Source of the DNA: an uncultured Caldilineaceae bacterium
GTDB taxonomy: Bacteria; Chloroflexota; Anaerolineae; Caldilineales; Caldilineaceae
Reading direction: 5' to 3'
Length of the DNA: 64,000 nucleotides
Assembly: GCA_958295915.1 (NCBI GenBank)
Contig: OY282381.1
Coordinates: forward strand, 3,308,722-3,372,721
The translations under genes and the position numbers were made by a program. Position 1 is the first letter of the stretch; the number at the start of each line of letters is the position of its first letter. The notes under the pieces are model-generated. The model made no database searches, was not told the DNA's origin, and saw only the letters and a program-made list of their open reading frames with translations. Positions 20,626-37,258 of the stretch are shown here, in pieces.

Positions 20626-21758
20626 CAATGCGTCGCCACGATAAGCGAACGCAGCCGCTCCTCATCCCACACCGCGCCCCAGCCGGGGCCGTCCGGCGGC
20701 GCGATGTGGCCGTCTTCGATCAGCGGGCCGTTGATCATCCCCCACTCCTCCCCTTCCGTGTGATTGCGCCGGGGATCTGCGCTCGAATGTTCGTAATAGT
20801 CGGTGTTGTCAATGCAGCAGCCCAGATGCGCGTGCACCAGCCCGAAGAGGCCGCCCGGGCCGTTCAGCTCCACATTCGTGCCGTGCAACTCCGCCAGATG
20901 GGCCAGCTTCAGCGCCTGCGTCAGCCCAAAGGTAGCCCGTGCCCGCAGCCGGTCCGACGCGCCCTGGATCAGCCACTGCGCGGTCAGGTCCACGTCGTGC
21001 ATCAGCCGTTCCGTCGCCATCACCGGAATCGTCAACACCCGACACAGCTCCCGATACAGATTCATCTTCTGCTCGTGCATCGGCTCTTCCAACCATACAA
21101 AGTCCAACTCCTCCATCACCCGGCCCACTTCGATGGCCTCGCGCAGATCGTAGGAGCAGACCGGATCGTTGAGCAGGTCGTAGTCGTCACCGACCGCTTT
21201 GCGCACCGCCGTCAGCAGGGGGATGTCCGCCTTGCCGCCCTTATATGTGTGCAGCTTGTAGGCATTGACACCGAAGCTACGTCCAGCCTCAATATGATCC
21301 AGATAGCCGGGCAGATCCATGTCACCGCCGGTGAGATAGACGGAAAAGCGTTCCCGCACCCGGCCGACCAGCGCGTGGACGGGCAGCCCGGCCACCTTCC
21401 CGGCAATGTCCCACAGGCAGTTGTCGAACTCGCCGAACCAACCAGGCTGCTGGTACACCCAGCGCGTGCCTTTGTGCAGAATCTGGTAGAGCCGCTCGCG
21501 GTGGAACGGATCTTCGCCGATGACATGGGCCTTCAAAATCTCCGCCTGCTCCGGTGTGATGGAAGTTGGGGCCACCCGCCCCATAACGCCTTCATCCGTT
21601 TCCACCTCGATGACATGCAACCGCTGCGGCGCGGTCGTCGCCATACTCTGATGGGTATACTGAATGCGCCGCAGGCCCGGCGCCTGCACCAACCGATGGC
21701 GGCTTTGGGTCCAACTCGGATGTTCGAGAATGTGAAGTTTGATGTCTGTAATTTTCAT
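20625..21758 (-). CDS. Enolase-superfamily (mandelate racemase / muconate lactonizing) enzyme
   Basis: 377 residues. The capping domain (1-120) is followed by the barrel. The KxH version of the base motif is seen in AYKLHTYKG, with metal ligands Asp in LLNDPVCSYD, Glu in VWLEEPM and Glu in MATERL. Members dehydrate or racemise sugar acids. The start codon overlaps the stop of the restriction gene by four bases (ATGA), so a metabolic gene appears coupled to the end of the defence operon. Whether this is real regulation or an accident of insertion is unclear. Confidence 0.9.
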   Translation of the reverse strand: MKITDIKLHILEHPSWTQSRHRLVQAPGLRRIQYTHQSMATTAPQRLHVIEVETDEGVMGRVAPTSITPEQAEILKAHVIGEDPFHRERLYQILHKGTRWVYQQPGWFGEFDNCLWDIAGKVAGLPVHALVGRVRERFSVYLTGGDMDLPGYLDHIEAGRSFGVNAYKLHTYKGGKADIPLLTAVRKAVGDDYDLLNDPVCSYDLREAIEVGRVMEELDFVWLEEPMHEQKMNLYRELCRVLTIPVMATERLMHDVDLTAQWLIQGASDRLRARATFGLTQALKLAHLAELHGTNVELNGPGGLFGLVHAHLGCCIDNTDYYEHSSADPRRNHTEGEEWGMINGPLIEDGHIAPPDGPGWGAVWDEERLRSLIVATH

Positions 21759-24487
21759 ATCAGTTCCTTGTTCAGGGTACGCGGATGCGATGCAGAGCCT
21801 TGTCGCGCTTCTTTGTATGATCTGAATCCGTCAAGCAGTTGCCGAAATGTGCTCGGTCGATAGGTCTGGAAGTTCTCTTCGTCAACATAGACAAAATCAT
21901 AGGCGACATCGGGCTGGGCTTTGTTGATATCCTGGCGCCATTGCCGCAGTCGGCGCATCTTCGGTGGTACATCCAAATCTTCCTGCCCTTTGGTCTCGAC
22001 GACAAGCACCCGCTCATCGGTCAGCTTTACCAGAAAATCCGGGTAGTAGTTGGCGATGTCTCCATCGGCATTGACATAATCGAGTTTGAAATGCACTGCC
22101 AGGTAGTTTTTGGCATAGGCGACGACATCGGGGCAGGCTTCCAGAAAGGCGGCAAATTCCAGTTCAAATTGACTATCGCCAATGATCTTGTTGAACACAG
22201 ATTTTTGGGGCAACAGATAGGCCTGGTCTTTGACCACAAAAGGCCGCGTATGCCGCAACTTGATGGTGTCCCTGATTTGCGCATCACCCTTGTCCTGTAC
22301 CGTAAGGTCATTGATGGCTCGCTTGAAGGTTTCGATGACGGTCTTGGTGGCGGCAGGTTCCGCCAGATTTCTCAATGTATTCGGTGATTCCAATCTGACC
22401 GTTTTGCCAAACAGATCATCCTGCATGAACCCTTTCACCTTGCCGTACAGCACATCATACCCGCTGACCAATCGCAGCTCTTGTATGATGGCCCTGGCAA
22501 AATAGCCGACCGCGCTGCGATAATCTGGGATATGGTCGCTATCTAGCACGGTGGTGTGTGTGATCTCGTCCGTGGTCATGCGTTTGAAAACGATCTCCCG
22601 TTGTTCTTCTGCACTAAACTGCTGATACGTCGCGGGCGTAAAACCCTGCCTGGTAACGTCCAGATCAGCCAGATTCCTGTATTCCCGATACACGCGCCGC
22701 GTCAGTACCGGAATGGCGATATCCAGGGCGTCGATGTCCTTGTTGGGGTTCTCTGTGTCCACTTCAACCACGAGCGGCGTTTTGGGCCTGGCGCCTTCAC
22801 CCATGGCCTGGCGTTCCAATTCCACGCCTTCCGCTTGAATCGACTCGACAAATTCCATAAAGGCATTGGTGCCGATGACGCTCACAGACTCTTTCACTCC
22901 GTTGAGGTACATTTTGCGTAGCCCGCGTCCCAAGGTCTGTTCCGGCAGAATATTGCTCTTGGCGGAATAGGCGCGCAGCCCCACAAGGGTGGTCACATTG
23001 CGCACATCCCAGCCTTCTTTGAGCACCAGCACCGAAACAATCGCCCGGTAAGGGCTGCTCATATCGTCAATCTCATTGGCTTGCGCGCGCAGCTTCTCCA
23101 GTTCCTCTTTTTTCTTGCCGGAGCGCGCCTCGGAAATCTCGCCATTGTTCTTGGTGTGAATGACCAGTAAGGCATTTTTCAGCTCTGGATAATGGCTTTC
23201 CAGGTATTCCGCTACATCATCGCAGTTACGGGTGTCATCGGTCATCACAAACAGAATGGCCTTTTTGCCCAGCTTTTCATGTTCTGCATACGCTTTACGC
23301 CACTCGATGACACCGAGTTCAAGGTAGTCAGCATATTTCTCAGTGTACTTCGCGCTTTGTCGCTCAACGAGTTTCGCCCGGCTGGGCGCGTCGGGGAGTA
23401 CCGGATGCTTGACCACATTTTGCGAGATCGCCTCCACGAGGGGGTAATCCGCTACAGTCTGCGCAAAAATCGCGCCGTTGTTGTGCTTGGGCGTGGCGGT
23501 TACATCCACTTGCAGCGCCAGCGCGCTCCCTTTCTGCAACAGACGGTTGTGAATGTCCTCAATAGACTTGAACCAAGCCAGCTTCCTGTCGTGAATATGA
23601 TGCGCTTCGTCGTTGAGCACCATCAACTCGTCAATGTCGCGCACGATCATCCCCAGGTCCACTCTGGAGTCGGTGGTTCCGCCCGTGGGCCGCTTGCCGA
23701 GAAAATAATCCATCGAGTTCTCATCATCGGGCGTGGGCGGGATGTCATCGCCCGAATAGACGCGGTGAATATTGGTCAGAAAAAGATTGCCTTTAGGCCG
23801 CGTGACCCGCACATCGTCCTGCACATGCAGGGTGAGCTGAAAATCAGCCTGCCAGGCGCGGCCATCAAAGCCGTTATCGGGAATGACCGGATCGGCAAAG
23901 AAGATGCGCAAGCCCTGAAAGTCCCTGTAGATGCGGTCCAGCACAATGATATTGGGGGCGATGACCAGAAAGTTGCGCGCCAGGTTGGAATCGGATTCAT
24001 ACAGTCTGTGAAAGAAGCTCCAGGCAATCGCCAGGCTCATCACTTTGGTTTTGCCACTGCCCGTTGCCATCTTTACTACAAATCGCTGCCAGCTTTCGTC
24101 AAACATAGCGGGCGAAACAGTGCCGGAGCTGTCAAAGCGCATCAGGTCGAATTTGTCCTGCACCCCCGCTACGTCATACAGATAGATGATGGTTTCCAAC
24201 GCTTCGCGCTGGGCAAAGTAATACTGAAACTCCGCCATGCCGCCATCAGCCTGCGGCAGCAGATGCGGTTCCTGGAACCACCAATGCAACAGGCTTTTGC
24301 TGGTATCGCTTGCGCCTACATAGCCTCTGTCGCGGAACTCCTTCACATTGCGCCGAAGCTGGGCCACCAGCGGCGGCATCAGCTTCTCCATCCTGGTATT
24401 GCGCAGCGCCTCTTCGGCTGGAAACCAGCGGATATCCGGGTCGAGAATCTCGTGGGGAGAATCGGGGAAATTGGGATGGAGCGCCAT
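21755..24487 (-). CDS. res: Type III-like restriction enzyme Res subunit (helicase-nuclease)
   Basis: 910 residues. Walker A ATGSGKT is at 141-147, the DEAH-type motif LNDEAHHIHD near 292, motif VI-like LPEQTLGRGLRK near 510, and a C-terminal PD-(D/E)XK nuclease segment YYPDFLV...VVETKG near 815-835. Res translocates along DNA and cleaves when partnered with Mod, here 28297-30441. Its ATG overlaps the stop of the small gene 24487-25089 by one base (TGATG). Separation from mod by five intervening genes is unusual, since mod and res are normally adjacent. Confidence 0.92.
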   Translation of the reverse strand: MALHPNFPDSPHEILDPDIRWFPAEEALRNTRMEKLMPPLVAQLRRNVKEFRDRGYVGASDTSKSLLHWWFQEPHLLPQADGGMAEFQYYFAQREALETIIYLYDVAGVQDKFDLMRFDSSGTVSPAMFDESWQRFVVKMATGSGKTKVMSLAIAWSFFHRLYESDSNLARNFLVIAPNIIVLDRIYRDFQGLRIFFADPVIPDNGFDGRAWQADFQLTLHVQDDVRVTRPKGNLFLTNIHRVYSGDDIPPTPDDENSMDYFLGKRPTGGTTDSRVDLGMIVRDIDELMVLNDEAHHIHDRKLAWFKSIEDIHNRLLQKGSALALQVDVTATPKHNNGAIFAQTVADYPLVEAISQNVVKHPVLPDAPSRAKLVERQSAKYTEKYADYLELGVIEWRKAYAEHEKLGKKAILFVMTDDTRNCDDVAEYLESHYPELKNALLVIHTKNNGEISEARSGKKKEELEKLRAQANEIDDMSSPYRAIVSVLVLKEGWDVRNVTTLVGLRAYSAKSNILPEQTLGRGLRKMYLNGVKESVSVIGTNAFMEFVESIQAEGVELERQAMGEGARPKTPLVVEVDTENPNKDIDALDIAIPVLTRRVYREYRNLADLDVTRQGFTPATYQQFSAEEQREIVFKRMTTDEITHTTVLDSDHIPDYRSAVGYFARAIIQELRLVSGYDVLYGKVKGFMQDDLFGKTVRLESPNTLRNLAEPAATKTVIETFKRAINDLTVQDKGDAQIRDTIKLRHTRPFVVKDQAYLLPQKSVFNKIIGDSQFELEFAAFLEACPDVVAYAKNYLAVHFKLDYVNADGDIANYYPDFLVKLTDERVLVVETKGQEDLDVPPKMRRLRQWRQDINKAQPDVAYDFVYVDEENFQTYRPSTFRQLLDGFRSYKEARQGSASHPRTLNKELI

Positions 24488-25089
24488 CAGGATGCCTTAT
24501 GAACCAATCTATTAAAATGGTGAGAAATACCTCTGGAAATCTTCAAAAAATTCTCAGGGCAGTTGTGCAATGACCCGCTAGCTGTATGACGTGTAGGGCG
24601 CTTGTTAATATGGATGTTTGCCATGCTTATAAATCGGTACTCATAGTCATCAAGAAATTCTTTTTCTAGCCAGAATTCCTTGCCTATACATTTGCAGTAA
24701 CGCATAAAGCATTGTGCTCCTTTTAGCTGTTTTACGACGCACTTTGCCGTTTTACTGTTCCCTGCCTGCATTTCTATACAGATAATCCACTTGCTCGTAT
24801 CCTTGTTGGATACAATCACGAAATCAGCCCTCTTGTTTTCGCCCTTTGAACCTTCAAATATACTCTTGCCTTGTGAACCATTGATATCAGCACGAGGGAC
24901 AAAAACTTCCGCTCTAATCACAATGGAGTCATGAGGTAGCCCTTTTATTTCTACTGTTGTCCCGGCCTGCCTGTCCGTTAGTTTGACAGAAGGCTTGCCT
25001 TGCCCTTGTTGCAACGGAACTCGGGCGCCAGAGATGATCATTGCCTGCAATATTTCAACATCATTCAAGAGCCTTACTCTGCCCCCCAC
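24487..25089 (-). CDS. Putative small nuclease-like partner of the AAA ATPase, unknown family
   Basis: 200 residues that I cannot assign to a named family. The segment RADFVIV...WIICIEMQAGNSKTAKCVVKQL resembles the core of a PD-(D/E)XK fold (Asp, then Glu-x-Gln instead of Glu-x-Lys, followed by a basic helix). That reading is tentative. Five cysteines occur in all. The gene overlaps the AAA ATPase gene upstream by 16 bases and the res start by one base, so all three should be made together. ATPase-plus-small-effector pairs are a common layout in phage defence. Confidence 0.6.
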   Translation of the reverse strand: MGGRVRLLNDVEILQAMIISGARVPLQQGQGKPSVKLTDRQAGTTVEIKGLPHDSIVIRAEVFVPRADINGSQGKSIFEGSKGENKRADFVIVSNKDTSKWIICIEMQAGNSKTAKCVVKQLKGAQCFMRYCKCIGKEFWLEKEFLDDYEYRFISMANIHINKRPTRHTASGSLHNCPENFLKISRGISHHFNRLVHKAS

Positions 25090-26486
25090 ACGATGTCTTC
25101 CTGAATTCTGTTCATGTCATCAATGGTTGTGTCAAAACTGGGGGCTCCAATGCCAAATTTCGGATCAATATCAGCCGCCACGAGTGTGTGACCTCTTCTG
25201 CGTCTCTTTTGCCCTTCTTCTAATGGCATCAAATCTTCTTGAGCCATATATACTTTGACTTGATCTGACTTGATCAACTCGGCCTCCCGATAACCGTTGT
25301 CTTTGGCAATTCTTTTCAGGTGTGGCCTATCGTGATTCAGCATGATGAGGGTATTCAGCTCTTTGACGATGTAATCGCTGTGGGTGGTTACAAAGACTTT
25401 AATGCCCACATTCACCAGACGCGCAAAAAGCCTGGCAATGCGGCGTTGGTTTTCTGGATGAAGGTTTAATTCCGGCTCATCCACCATCAACAGGTGTCCG
25501 GGGGCTGCGACATGACGCAAATAAAAACCTATATCAAGCAAAGAACGCACCGCGCTGGAGCTCTCGTCCATTGTCAACTTCAGCTGTTGTCGTCCTGCGC
25601 GCTTTGCGGGTTTGAAGTAAATCGTGTCATTACTCTCTGCGATATATTCGCCGCCGATGATGTCGGCGAAATCATTCAGTATGCGCGGATGTTCTTTGAC
25701 AAGAAAGCTGTCTTCTTTGGCAATGTCCTCAATGCGCCGGATAAAATCTACGTTGATTCTGACCGGCAAAGGGTAGTCCCGGTAGGTCTTGAACAACAAA
25801 TCCATCGGGTCAATGTCTCTGTCCGCTCGACTCATTTCTTCCAGCAAGCGGTTCCGGGCAAAATTCAATTCCTTGCGAAAAATTGCCGCGCCGGTGCGCT
25901 CCGTGTTGGCGATAAAAGGGCGGGGGAGAAATTTGCCGAAGAGTAATTCAATAATATGGCCTGAGATCATATCCTTAACGATTTCAGCAGGCAGTTCCGT
26001 TTCCCCCTTACCCATCAGCAGCGATATCACCAGCTCCTCTTCACCTTCAGCTTTGGACAGAGAGAGAAGATCGTCTTCGGCAGAGCGTATTCTGCCCTCA
26101 AAAGCGCGGCCTACCACTGCCGATATCGTTTCCGATTCAATTTCCGCTTGAAAAGTCGTGTCTTTGAAGCGACCCGCTGTTGAGGCAAAGATTCTGTGGA
26201 GTTGCCGGGTATAATCCTGGCAACCCTGTCTCAGGATATTGTCCGCTCTCATGGCATAGGGCGTAACGTCAATCCGCGTTACGCCGTCCTTCAATAAGGC
26301 ATCAATCGTCTGATCGGGAACTTCGACTTCCAGGGAAGCTTCCCAGCCCCATAAAAAACCGAACAGAGCGTAGGTCGCATAGGTTTTGCCGGTGTTATTT
26401 GCGCCACAGATGATGGTCAGATCTCCTAGCGAAAATTCTGCCTTCTTTAAGATTCCAAGGTTTTGCAAGCGTATTTTCATGCTCAC
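25074..26486 (-). CDS. AAA/ABC-type ATPase of the OLD/RloA-like group
   Basis: 470 residues. Walker A GANNTGKT is at 28-35. The ABC-like signature region lies around residue 320, and Walker B with D-loop LLMVDEPELNLHP is near 340, followed by VFVTTHSDYIVKEL. There is no C-terminal TOPRIM domain, unlike full-length OLD nucleases, so the effector is probably the next gene. The start is GTG (then AGC ATG), overlapping the TGA of a 35-bp copy of the mod tail and using its GGAGG seven bases upstream. Confidence 0.88.
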   Translation of the reverse strand: MSMKIRLQNLGILKKAEFSLGDLTIICGANNTGKTYATYALFGFLWGWEASLEVEVPDQTIDALLKDGVTRIDVTPYAMRADNILRQGCQDYTRQLHRIFASTAGRFKDTTFQAEIESETISAVVGRAFEGRIRSAEDDLLSLSKAEGEEELVISLLMGKGETELPAEIVKDMISGHIIELLFGKFLPRPFIANTERTGAAIFRKELNFARNRLLEEMSRADRDIDPMDLLFKTYRDYPLPVRINVDFIRRIEDIAKEDSFLVKEHPRILNDFADIIGGEYIAESNDTIYFKPAKRAGRQQLKLTMDESSSAVRSLLDIGFYLRHVAAPGHLLMVDEPELNLHPENQRRIARLFARLVNVGIKVFVTTHSDYIVKELNTLIMLNHDRPHLKRIAKDNGYREAELIKSDQVKVYMAQEDLMPLEEGQKRRRRGHTLVAADIDPKFGIGAPSFDTTIDDMNRIQEDIVWGAE

Positions 26487-26517
26487 ACCATCACCTCCAC
26501 AATCGTCATCGTATCAT
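26483..26517 (-). repeat. mod-tail copy B (35 bp) acting as leader of the AAA gene
   Basis: Identical to the last 35 bases of mod (28297-30441), including a mini-frame that encodes MTIVEVMV and the stop. It contains GGAGGTGAT, a strong anti-16S match. The PIN gene ends at its distal edge and the AAA gene starts at its stop codon. Confidence 0.92.
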
Positions 26518-27062
26518 AAACGTAAGCCCAGCAAACGTCGATTCGCCGTCAGAACGGATATTCCCTGACCTTTGAAATCACCATCATTCGTAATCAGCGT
26601 CAGCCCCTCTCTTTTGCATACCTCCGTAATAACCTGGTCATTAAAATCGGAGTCACCTGCAGCATACTCATCAAGCAAGACATCTGTTTTCAATGTTTCA
26701 AACCCACTGTTTATGCGTGAACAATGCTTCAGAATACGCTTGACATCAGCGGCAATATCTTGAGCAACCGGTTTGAAATGCGGGCGATTGCGGAAATTTT
26801 TGAATTGTTTGATGTTGGGCGCAACAAGCCTCCATTGCAACCTGGCATAACGGTTAATAAATTCTGAAACGATAAGAACATCGATATGAATTCGGCTTTT
26901 TGCGCTGAGAATGCGCTTAAAAGCCTGCGAATAAATCTTCACATGGCGAGGAGCTTGTGGTTGTTGTGGACCATATACATAGAACCAGATATTGGTATCC
27001 AGAAACAGTTTGTCTTTGGAAGTAAAGTTGTACTGATTCAACGATATTGCCTTATGTGTCAT
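26514..27062 (-). CDS. PIN-domain RNase (VapC-like)
   Basis: 182 residues from the ATG at 27062. The PIN acidic residues are visible: Asp22 in FLDTNIW, Glu in IVSEFINRY, Asp residues in SDFNDQVI and Asp in ITNDGDFKG. PIN proteins are Mg-dependent ribonucleases, often toxins. The upstream partner is not a typical VapB but a STAS-like protein whose gene overlaps it by 11 bases, with a GHKL ATPase before that. The stop codon lies inside mod-tail copy B. The longer start at 27140 was discarded because it reads back through the STAS-like gene. Confidence 0.86.
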   Translation of the reverse strand: MTHKAISLNQYNFTSKDKLFLDTNIWFYVYGPQQPQAPRHVKIYSQAFKRILSAKSRIHIDVLIVSEFINRYARLQWRLVAPNIKQFKNFRNRPHFKPVAQDIAADVKRILKHCSRINSGFETLKTDVLLDEYAAGDSDFNDQVITEVCKREGLTLITNDGDFKGQGISVLTANRRLLGLRL

Positions 27063-27423
27063 CGTTCTCATCCTCCAGCGTCTCTCGAACCGCTTGGTCG
27101 AATCTCTGCGGATCTTTGAAGTACAGCTTGGCCGTGTCAACGACGCGCTTCAACAGCGGCAGATCATCTGGCTCCACGTCCTCTACCTTCAACAGGGAAC
27201 GAATCTGTTCTTCGCTGAAGGTCCCATACAACTGACCAATCGCGGCATTCAGGAAAGCCGAGGTCAGGATAGTGGCATTGTGAAATGAGAGTGCGACGCG
27301 CCGACCCGCATGAAAAGCGGTGGCAAGGCGCTCATACACCTTCTGCCCATCATTTGAGGCGACGCACAAGGGACTGCCCACCACCTCAAATACGGATATT
27401 TTCATGTCTTTCTGCATGATCAT
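27052..27423 (-). CDS. STAS-like DUF4325 protein
   Basis: 123 residues. The pattern VALSFHNATILTSAFLNAAIGQLYG near residues 43-67 is typical of DUF4325, a STAS-like fold related to anti-anti-sigma factors. Such proteins are commonly paired with GHKL ATPases, as here (27428-28300, five bases upstream). The gene overlaps the PIN gene by 11 bases. By analogy with SpoIIAA/SpoIIAB partner switching it could relay the ATPase's state to the PIN nuclease. That is inference. Confidence 0.82.
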   Translation of the reverse strand: MIMQKDMKISVFEVVGSPLCVASNDGQKVYERLATAFHAGRRVALSFHNATILTSAFLNAAIGQLYGTFSEEQIRSLLKVEDVEPDDLPLLKRVVDTAKLYFKDPQRFDQAVRETLEDENDDT

Positions 27424-27427
27424 CCCC

Positions 27428-28300
27428 TCAAAAAATGTCCTCGGCGTTCAGTTCGGAAGTAAGGCTGTAGGAATTCGTGTCTGCCGTATTGATTTCTATG
27501 TTTATCACTGTGCCAGGAAACGGGTGGCTTAAGCGTACGGTACAGATTCCTTTGTTCTCACGATGCCAATAGCCGGCATCTGAAACAATCTGAAGGCAGC
27601 CGTTATTCAAGTCAATGAACTCACCAAGCAACTTCAATCCCAATCCACCTGGAACATTGCCACGCTTGGTTGTGCTGTTGCCCGTGGTGGCCCAGACAAT
27701 CGCTTCCTCCGGTGAAAGATCAAGCCCTATATGATCTCTTATATTCTGACGTATGCCAACTCCCAGGTCAGCCACCGTAAACTCAATCCTGTTCCGTGTA
27801 GGGAAGAACTGCCCGCAACTAAAAATCCCCATTTCAGTACGTGAGTGCCACACGGCATTGCTGAATATTTCAAAAATGCTCTCGCGGAATTTTTTCAACA
27901 ATCCCGGCGACATTTCAGGCATCTCGGAACGATGTATAAGCTCATCCTCAATATAGCTGGAGAAATAGCGGTCGTCTTTAACATCAAACCGCTGATAGGA
28001 AATAGTCGTTCTCCAACGATCGGAAATTCTCACGCGCCCATAGTGACTGAGAAAGCCGTTTCTTGATAGAATATCCCCAACTTTGGGCGGGATATTCGTC
28101 AATGCGACGGTGTTCAGGTTTTTCCCCAAACTGTAAAGTATTGCGCCAAATGCCGCGCACATATCGGCTTCAAACCAGGTAGTTGCTCCCATGTCAATCT
28201 CAACATCATCAAACCAACATTTTTTGGTCTGCGCATGGAGACGCGCCAGTGCCTCAAAACTTGTTTGGTCGTGACGAATCGCTGGCAGAGCGAATCTCAC
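27428..28300 (-). CDS. STAS-like plus GHKL (histidine-kinase-like) ATPase protein
   Basis: 290 residues. The N-terminal third (about 28-75, IDMGATTWFEADMCAAFGAI) looks STAS-like. The C-terminal part is a GHKL ATPase with N-box FEIFSNAVWHS (Asn148), G1 ADLGVGI (177-183) and G2 GGLGLKLLGEF (218-228). No phospho-acceptor histidine domain is evident, so it is an anti-sigma-type ATPase or kinase rather than a sensor kinase. It starts with GTG, overlapping the mod stop by four bases and using mod's GGAGG. Confidence 0.85.
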   Translation of the reverse strand: MRFALPAIRHDQTSFEALARLHAQTKKCWFDDVEIDMGATTWFEADMCAAFGAILYSLGKNLNTVALTNIPPKVGDILSRNGFLSHYGRVRISDRWRTTISYQRFDVKDDRYFSSYIEDELIHRSEMPEMSPGLLKKFRESIFEIFSNAVWHSRTEMGIFSCGQFFPTRNRIEFTVADLGVGIRQNIRDHIGLDLSPEEAIVWATTGNSTTKRGNVPGGLGLKLLGEFIDLNNGCLQIVSDAGYWHRENKGICTVRLSHPFPGTVINIEINTADTNSYSLTSELNAEDIF

Positions 28301-30441
28301 ACCATCACCTCCACAATCGTCATCGTATCATTGCCGAAAATATCCACCACCTTGACCGCGATCTTGCGCCGGCCGGGCGCGCATTCGTGGGCGCCGCTGG
28401 TCAATTCCAGCGAGCGACCCCTTTTGGCGCGGAAGCTCTGCCACTCGTTCTCGAAGATATACTCGCCCGTCCACTGTTCTTCCCACTCGCCGGTTTCTTC
28501 ATTTTGCACGCGGATAATCTCACGTTTGCTCTCGAAGTCGAAATCCACCGACCAGTAGTCGATCCAGTCGGTCCAGTGTTGGGTGAGCTGTGCGCGGCTG
28601 ACGATACCGCTCCTGTCTTTTGACAGCTTCACAATCTGACCCTTCTCTACCACGATTTTGCCGCCTGCCTTACTGGTAGCTGACAGCGCCGCCTCGGCAT
28701 TGGCAATCGAATCCTGCGAGTAGAACACCGAAAAATCCATCAACGCCACCTCTACGCTAGATGGCGTGCCTTTCTTGCCACTCCTGACCAGCGGCTTGAC
28801 CTCAATAAACGCCGCGTCGTGGAATACCACCTGGTTTCTATCCACCGCGCGCCTGTCGAAGACCTCGGCGGGGATATACTTGGGCGCCAGGTCGATGCCC
28901 TTGGCGCGCGCCTCGTCCAGCACGTTGGGAAACAGCCCCATCTCGAACTCGAAACCGAGAATGTCCACCCTGGTGATGTGATTCTTGCGGCACGCAAGAA
29001 TGATCTCCTCCACGAATAGCCGCGTGACCGGCAGATTGACCGGTCCCACCGCCACCAGCCGCCCGGCCTTCTTGCCGTGAAAACCGGCGAAATGCTCTAC
29101 CTTCTCCGCCCGGTACGCAGCCAGAATCAGATCGAGGAAGGCGGCCTCCTTCCTCGCCATCCGCTTGCTCGACTCCGCTGCGCGCAAGTTGGGGTTGACG
29201 CCGATGTAATGCTGGCGCTCGTACTTGCCGAGGTTGAGGATTTCAAAGGCGCGGTAGTCCTTGCCGTCCGCCTTGAGCTGCCGCTGCACGCCGATCATGC
29301 GCTTGCGCGTAGTGTGGATGGCGAACTTGCCCAGATCTGTGGCGATCCACTTGCGGCCCAGCTTTTCGGCAACCGCGGCCGTAGTGCCGGAGCCGCAGAA
29401 GAAATCAGCGACGAGGTCGTCTGCGTTGGAGGAGGCTTTGATGATGCGTTCAAGCAGGGCTTCCGGTTTTTGGGTGGGGTAGTCAGTTGCCTGCAAATCA
29501 TTGCGAAAGATCGATGCAATGTCGTCCCAGACATCTCGCGCAATAACCATCCTATACTTCTCGCCAGGCTTACCATTTTTGCAAAGCTCGCAAATTTCAT
29601 CGCGCATTACACCAAGCCGTTTACCAGAATTCGTATGTGGTTCAGGCAGCGTTGGAACGTACGATCTCTGGTGAAACAGATTGAAAATTGGTTTGTCCCC
29701 TTTTGAATAGAACAAAATGTGGTCATGTTTCTTTGAGAAACCAACTTTTTCTGGAATGCCCCCTGTTTTGTATCCCCACTCAATTTGATTGATAAAGCTA
29801 CTGTGTCCGAATATTTCATCCATTGCGAGACGAATTAAACCGTTCATCCTATAATCACAATGCACATAGATACTGCCATCCTCCGCCAGCAGATCCCGCA
29901 TCAGCGCCAGCCGCTCGTAAATCATAGCGATATATGAATCCGCGACCTTGCCCCAGGTGTCGCGGTAGGCGATCTCTTCCAGGATGTTGGGCTTCTTGGT
30001 AAAGGTGTCGCCGCCGATCTCGATATTCATGGAAAAATCCGCGCCCACGTCAAAGGGCGGGTCGATGTAGATCAGCTTGAGTCCGCCCTGCGCTTCGATC
30101 TCCTCGCGCAGCGGCCCGTTCTTGAGCGACGACAGAATCAGCTTGTTGTCGCCCCAGATCAGCTTGTTCGTCCAGCCCTTGCGCTGGCGGCCGCGCTCGT
30201 CCAGGTCGAACAGCGCCATCCGCATGTCGGCGTCGGATGGCTTTTCGGCGCGCGGTTCGTCTACCTGCTCAATAATCTGAAAGGGCAGCACGATGTTGCA
30301 GACTTCGTTGGTCTTGCCGTTCCAGACCAGCTCCACCTCGCGCTTGTCCTCAAACAACAGAAAGCGGTATCTGTCCGGCAGAGGTCTGTCCGCCTCGATA
30401 CAGCGGATGATCTCCTGTTGTTCCTGTTCCGTTAAGCGTGC
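28297..30441 (-). CDS. mod: Type III-like DNA methyltransferase (Mod)
   Basis: About 714 residues from the GTG at 30441. That start has AGGAG ten bases upstream and aligns with the ATG of the broken second copy at 36390. The TTG-initiated extension to 30486 is less likely. The catalytic motif IDPPF near residue 127 precedes the AdoMet motif FFCGSGTT near 348, the beta-class order of type III Mod proteins. Mod recognises the target and methylates adenine, and directs Res. Its 3' end is the source of the tail repeats that precede other genes in the island. Confidence 0.94.
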   Translation of the reverse strand, partial: ARLTEQEQQEIIRCIEADRPLPDRYRFLLFEDKREVELVWNGKTNEVCNIVLPFQIIEQVDEPRAEKPSDADMRMALFDLDERGRQRKGWTNKLIWGDNKLILSSLKNGPLREEIEAQGGLKLIYIDPPFDVGADFSMNIEIGGDTFTKKPNILEEIAYRDTWGKVADSYIAMIYERLALMRDLLAEDGSIYVHCDYRMNGLIRLAMDEIFGHSSFINQIEWGYKTGGIPEKVGFSKKHDHILFYSKGDKPIFNLFHQRSYVPTLPEPHTNSGKRLGVMRDEICELCKNGKPGEKYRMVIARDVWDDIASIFRNDLQATDYPTQKPEALLERIIKASSNADDLVADFFCGSGTTAAVAEKLGRKWIATDLGKFAIHTTRKRMIGVQRQLKADGKDYRAFEILNLGKYERQHYIGVNPNLRAAESSKRMARKEAAFLDLILAAYRAEKVEHFAGFHGKKAGRLVAVGPVNLPVTRLFVEEIILACRKNHITRVDILGFEFEMGLFPNVLDEARAKGIDLAPKYIPAEVFDRRAVDRNQVVFHDAAFIEVKPLVRSGKKGTPSSVEVALMDFSVFYSQDSIANAEAALSATSKAGGKIVVEKGQIVKLSKDRSGIVSRAQLTQHWTDWIDYWSVDFDFESKREIIRVQNEETGEWEEQWTGEYIFENEWQSFRAKRGRSLELTSGAHECAPGRRKIAVKVVDIFGNDTMTIVEVMV

Positions 30442-30448
30442 CACGAAC

Positions 30449-31669
30449 TTACGACTCCTGACCTTGTTGCAAGGATCTTGCGGCAAAAATTGTCAAGTGC
30501 AACTCTTCGGCAACCAATTCATAGACAGGAGTTTTACCGCTCAGTCTCTCGCTTTCGTTCAAAATGATACCGACCCCCTCGCCTCGCCGCTCCAAAAAGT
30601 GTCGCCTTCTTACCTGTTGGCCTATATCATCGTCTAGTGTAATTTCCGAAAGTAAGCGGGCCAGCAGTTCATTACGGGTTGCCTGGACATAACGCAAATT
30701 TTCCACCGTCAAGGTATTTGCCAGCGCACCTGGCGAGCAAAGTTCCAGTCTGTCCGCAAACATGAACAAACGAATTTTCGAGCCGGTTTTTGAATAATCC
30801 CTATGCACAACTGCATTCACCAATGCCTCAAAAACCGCTCTCATGCTGTATTGTGGTTGGTCGGTTCTGCCAATTTCCTTGCGAGCCGATACCTGGTTGT
30901 ACTTTTCAACAAATTTGAAAGCGTCTATGATCTGTCGGTCCAGCGGCCCCTTAAAATCCTTGGCATCAATCTGGTAGTTCGCATCCTTTTCCTCACCACG
31001 ATAATAGACAGCCTGAATGAAACTGTTATAGAGATACTCATCGGGCCTGTCATGACACATCAACACCCCGGCGACCGAAGCCCGGCGCTCCCGCCCTGCC
31101 TTGACCAGCAGACGCCTTTTAAGCAGCAGATCTTCTACCTCATTCTCAGTGACTCCTTCTGTGATAAATCGCTGATAGAGTTCTTTCCTGACCGTGCCTT
31201 TATGGGTGTCCGGCACGAACTGTTTATCAAAAGAAATAATACGCGCTTGTGAACGGCTTTGTAACAACCGCGCCAACTGTTCGGTGGACATCTCTCTTTT
31301 GCTGCTTCCCTGGCGGATGAAATAACCGTTAGATGTTTTGTGCACAAACAAGCTGTGAGGCGCCTCTATTTTTAACAGGTTCTTATCATCAATCCGCAGT
31401 TTTTCTGTAACAATGAGAACCTGGGGTTCAATGCTGTCCTGGCATATTTCAACCACTGTCTTTTCAGCCTGATTCAGATTTTGCCGGTCAATACCGACAA
31501 TTTCTCCATAATCGTCAACACCGATCAATATCACCCCACCTCTGGCGTTGGCAAAAGCGGCTATCTCGTCGGCAAGGCTGCTTCTGTGCGGCAACTCTCT
31601 TTTCAACTCAATGGTTGAGTCTTCTCCCAGATATATTTTTCCAAGGAGTTCGGTCACACTGTCAAACAC
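30449..31669 (-). CDS. AlbA_2 (Schlafen-like) domain ATP-binding regulator-type protein
   Basis: 406 residues from the GTG at 31669, chosen because GGAG (part of the previous gene's last codons) lies eight bases upstream. The N-terminal AlbA_2 domain has STIELKRELPHRSSLADEIA and NARGGVILIGVDDYGEIVGI. A C-terminal GHKL-like module follows, with MRAVFEALVNAVVHRDY and ERRGEGVGIILNESE. Such proteins are often annotated as putative transcriptional regulators or ATP-dependent helicases, and they occur in defence islands. It sits seven bases before mod and three bases after the PHP-ATPase. Confidence 0.85.
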   Translation of the reverse strand: MFDSVTELLGKIYLGEDSTIELKRELPHRSSLADEIAAFANARGGVILIGVDDYGEIVGIDRQNLNQAEKTVVEICQDSIEPQVLIVTEKLRIDDKNLLKIEAPHSLFVHKTSNGYFIRQGSSKREMSTEQLARLLQSRSQARIISFDKQFVPDTHKGTVRKELYQRFITEGVTENEVEDLLLKRRLLVKAGRERRASVAGVLMCHDRPDEYLYNSFIQAVYYRGEEKDANYQIDAKDFKGPLDRQIIDAFKFVEKYNQVSARKEIGRTDQPQYSMRAVFEALVNAVVHRDYSKTGSKIRLFMFADRLELCSPGALANTLTVENLRYVQATRNELLARLLSEITLDDDIGQQVRRRHFLERRGEGVGIILNESERLSGKTPVYELVAEELHLTIFAARSLQQGQES

Positions 31670-31671
31670 CG

Positions 31672-34326
31672 CTAACTCTCCAAATGAATACGCCTGTAAC
31701 GCTGTTCGAATGCCTGTTGTCCGCCCTCCAGAATATCGCATATCGCCTGCCGGACTTGTTCTTCCTGGATACTGGCAGGCTGTTGCACTTGGGTTTCACC
31801 GCCCGCCACCTTGAGCGACAAAACCATTTCCGCATCGCCGTTGACCACAATATTGGCATTGTGCGTGACAACGATAACCTGCCGTCTGCTTTTTGTTTCT
31901 CGCAACTGCCGGACAATCAAACTGTAAATTAATTCGTTGTCTAAATCGTCTTCAGGTTGATCCAGCAATAGTGGCTCACTTCCGTAAGATAGAATAAACG
32001 CCAGTAGGGCGGCGGTCTTTTGCCCAGGAGAACCTTGCTCTATCGGTTGATTATTGGAACCAAAGGTGATTTTCAAATCATCTCCGGGAAACCATAAAAT
32101 GAAATCGCTCACAGACTCCTGCGGCAACGATTGCAGATGATGGGCGAACCGGACATCTCTGGGTCTCTCCTCTCCACTGCGAATCCTGTCAATCCTCCTT
32201 TTGAGATTTTCAATCTTCTGATCGCCACCGCTGTGATAAACTTTTTTTACCTGTTCAATGTCCCTGTCAAAGCGATCAGAGCATTGTAGTATACGCCGAA
32301 TATCTTGCTCTATGCCATCCCAATCTTCGCCAAAGGGCTTGACTTCAATCCTGACCGATGGATTGTCTTGTAAAATACAGGACAGGAAATCTTGTCTCTT
32401 GTCTGACAGCGCTTTCCTGTTTTCTGCAATTTTCTTAAACACCTTTTGTTTTTCAGCTTCTAATTCTCCCTTGCGTGACTGATACTCGCCAATTTGTTGC
32501 AACTCCCTTTGCAGAATTTTTTGTTGCGCTAAGAGAAAGGGATATCTGTTTGGGTCTATATCTTGCTGCGCGAGCTGGGTGCGCAACTGCTCATACTGCT
32601 CCATGTCTGCTTTGAGCGCCCGCATCCAATCCGCCGCGTTTTTTTCAGCTTGCCAGCCGGCGACAACTGACTGCGCTTCTTGCGCCAAATCGCTTACTTT
32701 GTCGCTGATAGCCCGCCATTTCTCGTTCCGTGCTCTTAAAACCGACAGCATATCGGGGCGCCCCGTAAAATGCTGCTCAGTAAAACGAGCCGGGGCAATC
32801 GCATCCCGCATCTCCCCAATCTGCTGGCTCATGTACTGCCAGTCGCTTTCCAGGCTTTCGATCTCGTTTAACTGTTGCTGCCGCTTGCGGTAATTTTGCA
32901 GAACTTCTGTATGCCCGGATTTTTCTATCTGCTCAATCTGTCTTGCCAGATCGTTGGACTCCCCGCGCAGCCGGTCTTCCTGAGCGATTTTTTCATTCAA
33001 CTCCCGCATCTTTTGTTCAATTTGCTTATAGCGATTCACCAACTCTCTTTTCTGCGTATCAATCGTCGCGTAACCAACATCAGGCGCCTCATCGATAATA
33101 TTGAGCAGCGCGCGTGGATTCTTGGCCAATTCAAAGATCTGCTTCTGGCTATAGATATATGCCGGGAAAAGCGATTTGATCTCCCCTACATCGGGCTTCC
33201 ACTTGCCATCTTTTTCCACTTCCAAAGAAGACATGTCCGATCGGGCCGACCAGTTCAAACGATAGCGCGTATCGCTTTTGCGATAGATCAGTGAGACTCT
33301 GCTGTTCCCGGTGAGTAAATTTTCAGCCCCCACAGCAAAATATTTGCTGCTCTCCTCTTGCAGCGTCTCCGGAATCTCTTTATCGCGCCGCAGGGCCAAG
33401 CGCATGAACTCCAGTAATGTGGACTTGCCGCTGCCGCGCCCGCCAATAATCGTGTTCAGGAAGGGACTGAACCGGCAATTCAGTGGTTCGGAGCGTCCGA
33501 TGTATTGCGCCTGGCAGATCTGTAGTTCTTCTATAAGAAACTCTGCATACCGGTTCGGCTTGTCGCTCATGTTGCGATTTACAGAAGCAGCGCCGTCTAT
33601 GAGCGAAAGTTTCAATCCCTCGATGGATGGCTCATCCATCTTGATCCAGGTAAACGCGCCAAATTCTTCTCTTCTGAAGTTATGGGTATCAGAACCTCTG
33701 ACTTCGGTCCATTGCAACTTCTTCTCTCTATACAATTGTGGTTTTTGGTACTCACTGTCACACAACTCCATGGCGTAAATGTTTGTTTTACCCAACGCCT
33801 GCTTCAGCGGTGACCCCTGACGTCGAAACAGCCCCTTTTTTTTATCGACATGCGCGGGAATGGCAATGCCATCCCGCTTTGTAATTTCATCAACGACCTC
33901 GGTAATGCTTTTCGTAATTACTTCATCGCTCTTGCCGTCCGCGCCCCGATAGCCAACCGCGCCGAGCAACAGATCAATATCACTCTTGTTTTTATCCTGC
34001 CCAAATATCGCCAAGATATGCACGTCGTCTGCTGAAATCTCTACGCCCGGAAACAAATACAGAGGTCGGTACCAATCGGGTTTATTTTCGGCTGAGGCTA
34101 ATTCATGTAACTTCTGCTGCAACGTATCTATCCAGCCACCGCTGTTGTGGTCCGTAATCGCCACACACTCGATTCCCTTTTGCATAAATTTTTGCAGCCA
34201 ATACTCGGGTGTAACCTTGGCTTTGTCCTGTTGGTTACGACCCTGCATAAAGTCATCTGAGGCAGGCGTGTGGGTATGAAAATCAAATTTCCACCACCGG
34301 GCGCCCGGAAATTGCCACTGAGTCAC
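31672..34326 (-). CDS. TrlF-type PHP phosphoesterase fused to an SMC/ABC-like ATPase
   Basis: 884 residues. The N-terminal PHP domain has metal-ligand motifs FDFHTH (His17, His19), ITDHN (Asp59, His60), FPGVEIS (Glu96), AHVDKK and GSDTHN. Walker A GGRGSGKST is at 295-303. A long coiled-coil region spans about 420-700. The ABC signature SPGQKTAAL and Walker B PLLLDQPEDDLDN close the ATPase. This fits a nuclease or phosphoesterase gated by an SMC-like ATPase. The GTG start overlaps the stop of mod-tail copy C by four bases. Confidence 0.87.
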   Translation of the reverse strand: MTQWQFPGARWWKFDFHTHTPASDDFMQGRNQQDKAKVTPEYWLQKFMQKGIECVAITDHNSGGWIDTLQQKLHELASAENKPDWYRPLYLFPGVEISADDVHILAIFGQDKNKSDIDLLLGAVGYRGADGKSDEVITKSITEVVDEITKRDGIAIPAHVDKKKGLFRRQGSPLKQALGKTNIYAMELCDSEYQKPQLYREKKLQWTEVRGSDTHNFRREEFGAFTWIKMDEPSIEGLKLSLIDGAASVNRNMSDKPNRYAEFLIEELQICQAQYIGRSEPLNCRFSPFLNTIIGGRGSGKSTLLEFMRLALRRDKEIPETLQEESSKYFAVGAENLLTGNSRVSLIYRKSDTRYRLNWSARSDMSSLEVEKDGKWKPDVGEIKSLFPAYIYSQKQIFELAKNPRALLNIIDEAPDVGYATIDTQKRELVNRYKQIEQKMRELNEKIAQEDRLRGESNDLARQIEQIEKSGHTEVLQNYRKRQQQLNEIESLESDWQYMSQQIGEMRDAIAPARFTEQHFTGRPDMLSVLRARNEKWRAISDKVSDLAQEAQSVVAGWQAEKNAADWMRALKADMEQYEQLRTQLAQQDIDPNRYPFLLAQQKILQRELQQIGEYQSRKGELEAEKQKVFKKIAENRKALSDKRQDFLSCILQDNPSVRIEVKPFGEDWDGIEQDIRRILQCSDRFDRDIEQVKKVYHSGGDQKIENLKRRIDRIRSGEERPRDVRFAHHLQSLPQESVSDFILWFPGDDLKITFGSNNQPIEQGSPGQKTAALLAFILSYGSEPLLLDQPEDDLDNELIYSLIVRQLRETKSRRQVIVVTHNANIVVNGDAEMVLSLKVAGGETQVQQPASIQEEQVRQAICDILEGGQQAFEQRYRRIHLES

Positions 34327-34394
34327 ACCATCACCTCCACAATCGTCATCGTATCATTGCCGAAAATGTCCATCACCTTGACCGCGATCTTGCG
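34323..34394 (-). repeat. mod-tail copy C (72 bp) acting as leader of the PHP-ATPase gene
   Basis: Matches the last 72 bases of mod with two visible differences, and ends abruptly at its upstream edge. It contains GGAGGTGAT and the TGA that overlaps the next gene's GTG. No open frame of useful length enters it from upstream. Confidence 0.92.
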
Positions 34395-34453: not shown

Positions 34454-34957
34454 TTAAAAACGCCATTTCTCACGCTCCATAAATCCTTTGAGATCAGTGC
34501 AATCCACCTCGAAGTATGCACAAACATTTGGAATTTTCGCCGCGTTGGGTGTATATTTTTCGGTCGTTACGACACAACCATTTTCCAGGCATTTGGCTCG
34601 TGCAATAATAAATGGGTCGGCAACCGGCCTTCCTTCTAAACGCTCCTTTTTTCAGATCATCGCCTGGAAGTGATAGACACCGAATATCTCCCTGACAACC
34701 GCTAGTTCTGCCGCGGTGGGCGTTACGAATACTTTTCCCCGATTCGCCTTGCACCAATTCGTCAATTCATCCTCGTGCCCCGCCAATTCGTTAAAGACTT
34801 CTCGCGTCGAAGTGATCCGACTGTCTTCAATCATTCTGTCAAAGTGTTTCCATAGAGAGGGAAACCGTTCGCGATAATAGTGACGGAAAAGGTCAATCAG
34901 CGGACCGCTATCGAACACATAGACTATCACATCATCGCCCCCTACTTGAGCAGCCAT
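34454..34957 (-). pseudogene. DUF4411 (PIN-like toxin) gene interrupted by an in-frame TGA
   Basis: 168 codons, the family's usual size, read continuously in one frame except for a single TGA at 34652-34654. The N-terminal half has YVFDSGPLIDLFRHYYRERF and the C-terminal half RPVADPFIIARAK and NAAKIPNVCAYF, both typical of DUF4411. The stop interrupts ...YHFQAMI before KKERLEGRP. It overlaps the XRE-ImmA gene by 16 bases, the standard partner layout. Most likely this is a nonsense-inactivated toxin. Readthrough or a sequencing error is possible, because only one base needs to differ. Confidence 0.82.
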
Positions 34958-36117
34958 TCTTCCATTCGGGGCACGTTCTTCGTTCTTGCATCCAGATAGT
35001 CAGCGGCTTGCTCCACCGAAATGTGCCCCTTGTAGTAATGACTGAAGACAGCTTCAATATACCTCTCACCAAGATAGGCCCCTTTGCTCCGATAGTAATT
35101 ACCGCCAGAATCACCGCTTTCCCCTCGCTCCTCTGACCATTGCTGCGTCTTCTCTTCGTAATCCTGCTGGCTCACTTGTCCCCAATCGAGCAGGCGTCGC
35201 AAAATAGTCTCTCGACTCACGCAATACAACTCAGCCCAATCTCTAATCGTACTATCATGAATGGGCTTTCCCGCTGAACGCATTTTGAAATCCCAAGAGG
35301 GCGCCAAAAATTCGGCGGCAAATTGATTGCAAAGCACTTCTATGCGCTTGTTGTCGCCGGTCAAACGATTGATATAGTCGTCCTGCCGAGTATCCACCCC
35401 GCCGGTGTGCATCAGCAAATGCGCCAACTCATGGCACAAGGTAAAAATCTGCCGGGTCTTGGCCTTGTTGTTGTTGACATAGATTACTGGAAAATTCTTG
35501 TCATACAGGCAGAAGCCGGAAAAAGAACTGTCGCCAGCATCCACGTTCCTGTTTCCCGGTGGTTTGAAGGTATCCTTGAATACAAAAATACCGTGATCCT
35601 CCAGAGACGCCCGCCAATGTTTGAAGGCGTCATCCGTGTTGTGCCAGGCCTGTTGTTGAGTAAGCTCTATGCCCAGATAGGCCCGGACTCGCTCTGCCAT
35701 ATCGGTAGCGGCGACAGAGGGTGCAAAATCAAGATCGTGCAATATCTTGCGATCCGCTGGATTCACACCGTCATACAGTTCGGCGAGATTCAGTTGTAAC
35801 ACCCTAGCCTTGCGTAGTAGATAACGTACCCGTGGTGGGATACGCTGCAACGCATGCTCCGGCAAGGTGCGAAACGATTGCTCTATGCTTTCCTCCTCTG
35901 GCACATTGGGGAAGAAGAACAGCGCGACCGGACGTTCATAGATCTTGTATGCCAGAGTTTCCAACTGGACATAGGTTGGAGATGCCTCGCCACGCTCCCA
36001 GGCCTCGATCTCCGACACTTTCTTCTGTATGCGCTGAGCCACTTCTTCCAGCGAGAGACCCAGGCTGACACGCGCCCAGCGCAGCACCTCGGGATTGACG
36101 GGAATCGGCTCGCTCAC
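34942..36117 (-). CDS. XRE-type HTH regulator with ImmA/IrrE metallopeptidase domain
   Basis: 391 residues. The helix-turn-helix (about 10-65) includes LSLEEVAQRIQKKVSEIEAW. The zinc peptidase motif is CHELAHLLMH near residue 228, with a downstream Glu-bearing helix IEVLCNQFAAEFL. This is the usual partner of DUF4411 toxins, thought to act as antitoxin or regulator. The GTG start (GTGAGCGAG) overlaps the stop of the broken second mod gene by four bases and uses its GGAGG. Confidence 0.92.
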   Translation of the reverse strand: MSEPIPVNPEVLRWARVSLGLSLEEVAQRIQKKVSEIEAWERGEASPTYVQLETLAYKIYERPVALFFFPNVPEEESIEQSFRTLPEHALQRIPPRVRYLLRKARVLQLNLAELYDGVNPADRKILHDLDFAPSVAATDMAERVRAYLGIELTQQQAWHNTDDAFKHWRASLEDHGIFVFKDTFKPPGNRNVDAGDSSFSGFCLYDKNFPVIYVNNNKAKTRQIFTLCHELAHLLMHTGGVDTRQDDYINRLTGDNKRIEVLCNQFAAEFLAPSWDFKMRSAGKPIHDSTIRDWAELYCVSRETILRRLLDWGQVSQQDYEEKTQQWSEERGESGDSGGNYYRSKGAYLGERYIEAVFSHYYKGHISVEQAADYLDARTKNVPRMEEWLLK

Positions 36118-36390
36118 ACCATCACCTCCACAATCGTCATCGTATCATTGCCGAAAATATCCACCACCTTGACCGCGATCTTGCGCCGGCCGGGCGCGCA
36201 TTCGTGGGCGACGCTGGTCAATTCCAGCGAGCGACCCTTTTTGACGCGGAAGCTCTGCCACTCGTTCTCGAAGATATACTCGCCCGTCCACTGTTCTTCC
36301 CACTCGCCCGTCGCCGGACATTGCACGCGGATAATTTGCCTCGATACAGCGGATGATCTCCTGTTGTTCCTGTTCCGTTAAGCGTGGCAT
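36114..36390 (-). pseudogene. Internally deleted second mod gene
   Basis: The first 16 or so codons match the start of mod (LTEQEQQEIIRCIEA) and the last 222 bases match its 3' end almost exactly. The junction is near 36335-36338. About 1.87 kb of the equivalent mod sequence is missing, and the two parts are in different frames, so no methyltransferase is made. The 3' end is preserved to the stop and still supplies the ribosome site for the XRE-ImmA gene. Confidence 0.93.
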
Positions 36391-36512
36391 GGGTTTCTCT
36401 TATATCGAAATTCAGGGGCGGCGAAGGTCCCGTATAAGCGGTGGTTAGCTGTTCGCATTTTCCCGCTCTACATCGTTCTTTTCAAGTGTATCAAAACGAT
36501 ATGTTGTCAGCC

Positions 36513-36633
36513 ACCGAAAAAGTTCAATTATGGAGGGGGTACAGGACACTCGCCCACCCCCCAAACCCATCATTCGTTGATCGATATTGTAAAACGAACA
36601 TCCGCCGCCATCATCTGCAACCGCCGGGTTCGG
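36513..36633. repeat. 120-bp direct repeat, copy downstream of hicBA
   Basis: Matches 37141-37258 with a few changes (shared core TTGATCGATATTGTAAAACG). The two copies flank the hicB-hicA pair in direct orientation. Confidence 0.9.
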
Positions 36634-36649
36634 TAATAGATCTAACTGT

Positions 36650-36892
36650 TCACGTCTGTTTGTAAGCCTCCAAAAAATCGGCTCTGGAAATCCCTGCCTG
36701 AGTACAGATTCGGCGTAAAGTTGAGCCGTTGATACGACGATGATTCGGCATAGTCAACGGGGTTCGGCTTCCATCCGGATTTTCCTGTACCATGGAAATA
36801 TGATTCCCTTCCCGAACCATACGAAAGCCCAATCTTTCTAACGTTCTGATCACTTCGGTTTTGGGCGCATCGACTGGAAAGCGGCGCGTCAA
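36650..36892 (-). CDS. hicA: HicA family mRNA interferase toxin
   Basis: 80 residues with the HicA dsRBD-like pattern: LERLGFRMVREGNHISMVQ including the catalytic His, TPLTMPNHRRINGSTLRRI and CTQAGISRADFLEAY. HicA cleaves mRNA independently of ribosomes and is neutralised by HicB. The start overlaps the hicB stop by four bases. The order hicB then hicA is the reverse of E. coli but common elsewhere. Confidence 0.93.
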   Translation of the reverse strand: MTRRFPVDAPKTEVIRTLERLGFRMVREGNHISMVQENPDGSRTPLTMPNHRRINGSTLRRICTQAGISRADFLEAYKQT

Positions 36893-37113
36893 ACAGCAAC
36901 TCCCGCTTCGGCTATGAATACCTCTAAGACGGGTTCTTCAGTCTCAAGCGCTTCTGCCCCAAATGTCTCAATGTGAAATTCAATCGCAGAGGTCATGTCA
37001 GCTACGGCTTGCTCGTAGGTATCCCCCTCACCCACAATAACGCCTTTCAGACCCAGTGGATAAGCCACATACCCATCCGCGTGCTTTTCAACGATACTCT
37101 TGAACAGTTGCAT
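36889..37113 (-). CDS. hicB: HicB family antitoxin
   Basis: 74 residues from the ATG at 37113, which has AAGGAGG ten bases upstream; the longer frame from 37200 runs into the flanking repeat. The partial RNase H-like HicB fold is seen in YVAYPLGLKGVIVGEGDTYEQAVADMTSAIEFHIE. No C-terminal DNA-binding domain is present, so autoregulation may need another factor. It is the first gene of the toxin-antitoxin pair. Confidence 0.92.
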   Translation of the reverse strand: MQLFKSIVEKHADGYVAYPLGLKGVIVGEGDTYEQAVADMTSAIEFHIETFGAEALETEEPVLEVFIAEAGVAV

Positions 37114-37140
37114 TCGAGCTTGCCCTCCTTTTTGCCACGT

Positions 37141-37258
37141 ACCGAAACAGTTCAATTGCGGAGGGGGTACAGGACACTCGCCCGCCCCCCAACCCATCAT
37201 TTGTTGATCGATATTGTAAAACGAACATCCGCCGCCGTCACCTGCAACCGCCGGGTTT
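37141..37258. repeat. 120-bp direct repeat, copy upstream of hicBA
   Basis: Direct repeat of 36513-36633. It ends about 30 bases before the hicB start and probably includes or displaces the hicB promoter. Confidence 0.9.

Follow-up and report, generated by a model that had tools for sequence, protein, structure and literature searches.

Genes of the island and their products

The window analysed here, 64,000 nucleotides of DNA from an uncultured Caldilineaceae bacterium, contains an island whose order along the minus strand is MFS, hicB-hicA, a mod remnant, xre/immA, a broken DUF4411 gene, trlF and albA2, followed by mod, GHKL, DUF4325, PIN, AAA and partner genes, res and a racemase gene. The parts from the mod remnant to res all lie on this strand. 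The gene trlF (31672-34326) has a GTG start and encodes 884 amino acids. Its TAG stop codon is followed by CG and then by the GTG of albA2 (30449-31669) at position 31669, which is residue 1 in the alignment to ten congeneric homologues, and a GGAG within the last trlF codons forms the albA2 ribosome site. The two-base spacing and the location of this site in the end of the first gene are as given in a preliminary description of this DNA, whose coordinates are exact for trlF but cover that gene only, the pair extending over 30449-34326.

The surrounding operon is that of a type III restriction-modification (R-M) system, as judged from the profiles matched by mod and res and from their adjacency in relatives. 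The intact mod (28297-30486; PF01555, 153 bits; PADLOC MTase_III, 1.5e-110) probably starts at a GTG near 30444, 4 nt past the albA2 stop, and res (21755-24487; PF04851, 53.5 bits; RE_endonuc, 23.0 bits at a cut-off of 23.4) is the gene placed directly behind mod in relatives. Between the two lie the GHKL ATPase, DUF4325 and PIN genes (26514-28300), which start on the stop codon of the intact mod, and an AAA ATPase gene with its partner (24487-26486), which match PDC-M47A and PDC-M47B (PD-T4-4-like) in PADLOC at 3.6e-214 and 5.8e-59. The genes for GHKL, DUF4325 (STAS-like) and PIN form an unnamed three-gene set with no PADLOC match, which is kept at the locus in congeners (L014, L056, L057, L062), there without mod.

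On the other side of the pair, a gene encoding an XRE-HTH and ImmA/IrrE peptidase protein (34942-36117; PF06114, PF01381) starts on the tail of the mod remnant (36114-36389), in which 52 nt of the mod 5' end (95%) are joined to 223 nt of the 3' end (98%), the interior being deleted. Its PIN-type DUF4411 partner (34494-34957) matches positions 1-84 of the 159 of PF14367 in the intact frame, with the remainder in another frame; the gene may be a true pseudogene, or the frameshift may stem from an error of assembly. Direct repeats, each about 127 bp long (36504-36630 and 37132-37257, 86-95%), lie on either side of the hicB-hicA genes (36650-37200), which look as though they entered or left by recombination between the repeats. 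A stretch of 72 nt (34323-34394) repeats the mod 3' end; it is 97% identical to the mod tail, includes an exact 33-mer and carries the ribosome site of trlF and, at its end, the GTG start. The mod tail upstream of the pair and the intact mod downstream of it, both reported earlier, are thus present. A further tail copy of 33 nt (26483-26515) starts the AAA gene.

The first product had been read as a PHP phosphoesterase fused to an SMC-like ATPase, which is borne out by its full-length match to the NCBIfam TrlF family NF045780 (575.6 bits, cut-off 350; residues 8-881, 874 residues). In the AF2 model (pLDDT 89) the PHP part (residues ~10-256) resembles EndoQ (Z 19.2) and the ATPase part (residues ~262-870), with its coiled coils, resembles the Rad50/SMC head (Z 19-20). 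Among 31 TrlFs the PHP ligands H17, H19, D59, H60, E96, H103, H159 and D213 are invariant and H215 nearly so; the Walker A (GGRGSGKS), signature region (S766xGQ) and Walker B (LLLDQPEDDLD) motifs are conserved, and together with the head fold they identify a Rad50/SMC-like ABC ATPase. The architecture of a nuclease with a Rad50-like ATPase is shared with Mre11-Rad50 and SbcCD, although in TrlF the nuclease is an EndoQ-like PHP domain, is fused in one chain and is found in defence loci. Over its whole length the protein is also of the same PHP and SMC-like ATPase type as the single-gene anti-phage system Ppl (PADLOC Ppl, E 1.4e-139). Its score against the Ppl anti-phage equivalog NF042955 (566.4 bits) lies below the curated cut-off of 1000, so the window TrlF is not classed here as Ppl, although it may function in the same way. 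The single-gene definition of Ppl does not include the conserved AlbA_2 partner described below.

The albA2 product has the AlbA_2/GHKL identity assigned to it previously. It consists of a Schlafen/AlbA_2 domain (residues 1-141; PF04326 SLFN_AlbA_2, 83 bits, cut-off 25.3), a probable wHTH (residues ~160-200) and a GHKL ATPase domain (residues 214-403; PF13749 HATPase_c_4, 63 bits, cut-off 26). In its AF2 model (pLDDT 86.9) the N-terminal domain resembles the Schlafen catalytic C-lobe and the SAMD9 tRNase (Z ~10), and the C-terminal domain resembles SpoIIAB and histidine kinases (Z ~9; 9.5 for the SpoIIAB-like match), with N285, G314, G363 and G365 of the N box and G boxes invariant. The AlbA_2 profile matches the structures of SLFN14, SLFN13, SLFN11, SLFN5 and SLFN12 (E 9e-11 to 2e-5), and E16, E21 and D53 align with E205, E210 and D248 of SLFN13, the three carboxylates whose mutation diminishes tRNA cleavage (PMC5862951). 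These residues are kept in 49, 48 and 48, respectively, of the 49 linked AlbA_2 proteins. The product is related to the antiviral Schlafen RNases of animals and is a putative tRNase. As it corresponds to one Schlafen lobe whereas SLFN13 is a pseudo-dimer, AlbA_2 would have to dimerise; a SLFN-like second lobe for residues 142-213 was absent from the list of structure matches, which barely probes that part. No NCBIfam model matched the albA2 product, and in PADLOC only the pAgo-type and SIR2-type Aga models did.

Pairing across genomes

For the survey one genome per species was searched with a profile of seven TrlFs, and albA2 was sought by profile HMM. In 52 (65%) of the 80 loci kept, trlF is followed directly by a homologue of albA2, and in three it is directly preceded by one. 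The loci kept are the best-scoring ones, closest to the window TrlF, so that this proportion is no unbiased frequency or census. The gaps between the two genes are mostly -8 to +7 nt. The carriers belong to about 15 phyla, comprising Desulfobacterota, Proteobacteria, Poribacteria, Acidobacteriota, Bacteroidota, Nitrospirota, Planctomycetota, Gemmatimonadota, Actinomycetota, Elusimicrobiota, Spirochaetota, Cyanobacteriota, Verrucomicrobiota, Chloroflexota and a methanogen. The preliminary description had taken the pair for a probable module, had asked for such a co-occurrence survey and had held that the idea would fail if the two were never found together elsewhere. The survey supports the module, and in addition four distant TrlFs of the window's own phylum (G142, G161, G265 and G424, 24-28% identity) also have albA2 directly downstream.

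Moreover the linked state clusters on the TrlF tree, with 11 changes for the linked group against 27 with shuffled labels, and the pairwise distances of TrlF and AlbA_2 are correlated (Mantel r 0.81, none of 2000 permutations being as high). The pair is conserved across many phyla, its genes lie close together and its proteins co-diverge. A chance adjacency of the two genes within a defence island could appeal to the fact that they are adjacent in no other genome of the genus; the adjacency across phyla and the co-divergence refute this explanation, which we regard as extremely improbable. A fortuitous pair, made of a resident albA2 and a trlF from elsewhere, was the conclusion first drawn from 16 congeners and was overturned by the 80-locus survey.

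These 16 congeneric genomes have the same chromosomal site between the MFS and racemase genes. An albA2 homologue (69-77%) is present at the site in ten of them, directly before the racemase gene in the nine with this flank present. None of the 16 has trlF beside albA2, the only other trlF of the genus (G005, 53%) being on another contig. The ten orphan albA2 genes are intact and the catalytic triad is kept in their proteins; albA2 can persist without trlF. The orphans form a separate, fully supported clade. The nearest relative of the window TrlF is that of a Poribacteria locus (L069, 64%), followed by L066, L067 and L068, and the nearest relative of the window albA2 is likewise from L069 (82%), with the same three loci also close. 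Because the nearest relative is shared and the orphans stand apart, the window pair most likely arrived as a unit, distinct from the resident albA2. The orphan albA2 leaders were also considered as fossils of the trlF 3' end, and for nearly all of them the local alignment scores are within those of shuffles. A separate observation at the same locus is a conserved pair of genes encoding 155-163 and 144-145 amino acids, found in five congeners (L053:13811-14733, L014:15657-16558).

The mod tail and the mod-res junction

The exact last 33 nt of mod occur in four identical copies in the window (26483-26515, 28297-28329, 34323-34355 and 36114-36146), each starting a different module, compared with none in 100 shuffles. 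A 25-nt core of this tail, with up to two mismatches allowed, is found four times in the whole 5.06-Mb genome, always within this island. Within the tail are GGAGGTGAT and a GTG that overlaps the stop codon, which together offer a ready translation start. The earlier view of the pair as an inserted unit bounded by mod stands in so far as the agreeing trees and the shared nearest relative fit transfer as a unit, but the mod tail is no one-off insertion scar, as it starts three other modules too.

Similar arrangements are found elsewhere. Two loci (L068 and G424) have a mod-trlF-albA2-res operon in which the trlF ATG overlaps the mod stop, L066 has mod tail-trlF-albA2-mod as in the window, L090 has trlF-albA2-mod and L078 has res-YhcG-mod-trlF-albA2. 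In typical type III R-M relatives mod is followed directly by res (G430, G563, G663, two plasmids and several viral contigs), whereas here cargo lies between the two. Other cargo in this position includes SIR2-HerA (G438), PDC-M19A/B (L160), a KilA-N PDC-S22 gene (L163) and, behind mod, GHKL-DUF4325-PIN (G015). At L150:8662-11408 a SIR2-HerA defence pair separates mod from res and overlaps the mod stop with its start.

The operons with trlF-albA2 next to mod could suggest that the pair serves the type III R-M enzyme as an accessory, modulating restriction, for example by processing cut ends, and is not autonomous. Most linked pairs, however, adjoin other kinds of systems (DUF1156/DUF499/Hma, MTase, HaeII and GmrSD being among the neighbours) or none, and the ten congeneric albA2 genes persist without trlF, nine of them at loci that have no intact mod or res. 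This dependent role is therefore considered improbable.

In congeners that lost mod, decayed copies of its tail stand in front of the GHKL or AAA genes, clearly in three and more weakly in others. Their similarity is significant beyond the ribosome site in G014, G006 and G008, borderline in G012, G009 and G004, and not significant in G016. The controls (leaders of albA2, mod and res, and that of the G005 trlF) were mostly negative, and there is no mod tail upstream of the G005 trlF. Mod remnants in two congeners (L064 of G006 and L061 of G008) keep an N-terminal piece and have the interior deleted, as in the window remnant, and that of G006 also keeps C-terminal pieces. No integrase was found at the mod-tail seam.

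Defence cargo appears to have docked repeatedly at the mod-res junction. The simplest reading would be that cargo repeatedly recombined at the mod end, where the tail was kept because it starts translation. In its fuller form, to which we give an even chance, the stop/start overlap and the strong ribosome site of the mod 3' end would allow recombination to bring in, stack and exchange complete defence modules (TrlF-AlbA_2, SIR2-HerA, PDC-M19, PDC-M47, XRE-ImmA/DUF4411 and GHKL-DUF4325-PIN), each new one being translated at once, and the tail copies and fossils would mark past exchanges. The seam would be a concrete sequence-level trace of defence islands adding modules one by one.

Proposed function and alternatives

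The pair is conserved, catalytic and nucleotide-binding residues are kept in both proteins, and pairs occur in mod-res operons or beside other methylase and defence genes. The explanation we propose goes further, and its mechanism is judged about equally likely to be right or wrong as a whole: trlF and albA2 would together form a defence module of two genes that rides as cargo at the mod-res junction of a type III R-M operon, and in which TrlF senses and AlbA_2 is the tRNase effector. TrlF may act as a one-chain machine of the Mre11-Rad50 type, with the SMC-like ATPase clamping DNA and the EndoQ-like PHP domain as nuclease, triggered by phage DNA, free ends or a blocked or failed restriction system. 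Its ATP-bound state would release or activate AlbA_2, a Schlafen/SAMD9-type RNase presumably gated by its own GHKL ATPase. Cleavage of tRNA would then stop translation and the infected cell would yield no phage, so that the module would be an abortive, second line of defence behind restriction. It is the retention of E16, E21 and D53 that leads to the proposal that TrlF licenses a tRNA-cleaving abortive effector.

Precedents for this mechanism are PARIS (PMC12409363), compared with the pair below, and the Schlafen RNase-minimal kinase-wHTH proteins of BREX and BREX-related systems, proposed as backup effectors in BREX (PMC12839542). The latter have the same domain set as the AlbA_2 protein, and the idea of a backup behind DNA modification is the same. 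Here the partner is TrlF; the main text of that paper does not mention TrlF, PHP, AlbA or Ppl. The literature search found no paper naming the TrlF-AlbA_2 pair, some likely sources being outside its reach.

Solo trlF loci without an AlbA_2 partner occur in plasmids of Enterobacteria, in Vibrio and in viral contigs, where albA2 is present at one of 21 TrlF loci. Direct searches for albA2 in viral contigs and plasmids found none, and no albA2 is annotated beside the two enterobacterial plasmid trlFs inspected. These solo loci count against the two-gene module, as TrlF may be an effector alone. In the main alternative TrlF is the effector, a DNA nuclease destroying phage DNA, which AlbA_2 represses or targets as a regulator or adaptor that binds nucleic acid. 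In favour of this, TrlF/Ppl genes often occur solo, and Ppl is a single-protein model in PADLOC and would, when solo, have to destroy phage DNA itself; DNA binding is another function under which AlbA_2 domains are filed, and the probable wHTH lies between the two domains. DNA binding alone, however, would not require the Schlafen carboxylates, which are almost invariant across more than 40 diverse homologues. We consider this assignment possible although rather unlikely.

The ten congeners with albA2 and no adjacent trlF likewise count against the module with TrlF as sensor. They bear in addition on a toxin-antitoxin-like pair, in which TrlF would hold the AlbA_2 RNase in check and the toxin would be freed once TrlF is lost or inhibited, as in a PARIS-like guard. 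An ABC-type ATPase with a tRNA-cleaving partner resembles AriA-AriB (PMC12409363), and AriA is matched by the TrlF ATPase profile at 4e-5. Nevertheless intact albA2 without trlF indicates that AlbA_2 is not toxic alone in these congeners. This objection is qualified by E389, invariant in linked AlbA_2 proteins and lost in all ten orphans, and by the RSQAR..F.EQ segment (residues 139-150), altered in six of the ten; such changes would be the expected look of release from contact with TrlF. On balance a guard of this type seems quite improbable. The PARIS system itself (AriA ABC ATPase and AriB Toprim tRNase) also combines in two genes a sensing ABC-type ATPase with a tRNA-cleaving partner, the latter being proposed here, but in the pair a PHP nuclease is fused to the ATPase, the predicted RNase is of Schlafen and not Toprim type, and the ATPase belongs to a different family.

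With this pair the widespread and mechanistically unexplained TrlF/Ppl proteins gain a conserved partner in which an RNase site of the Schlafen type can be recognised, and the effector question reduces to a few point mutations. A human antiviral RNase fold would also be linked to a putative DNA-sensing bacterial machine. At one of the other loci (L128:7543-8781) a trlF without albA2 is followed directly by a gene for an SbcD-like metallophosphatase, an echo of Mre11-Rad50.
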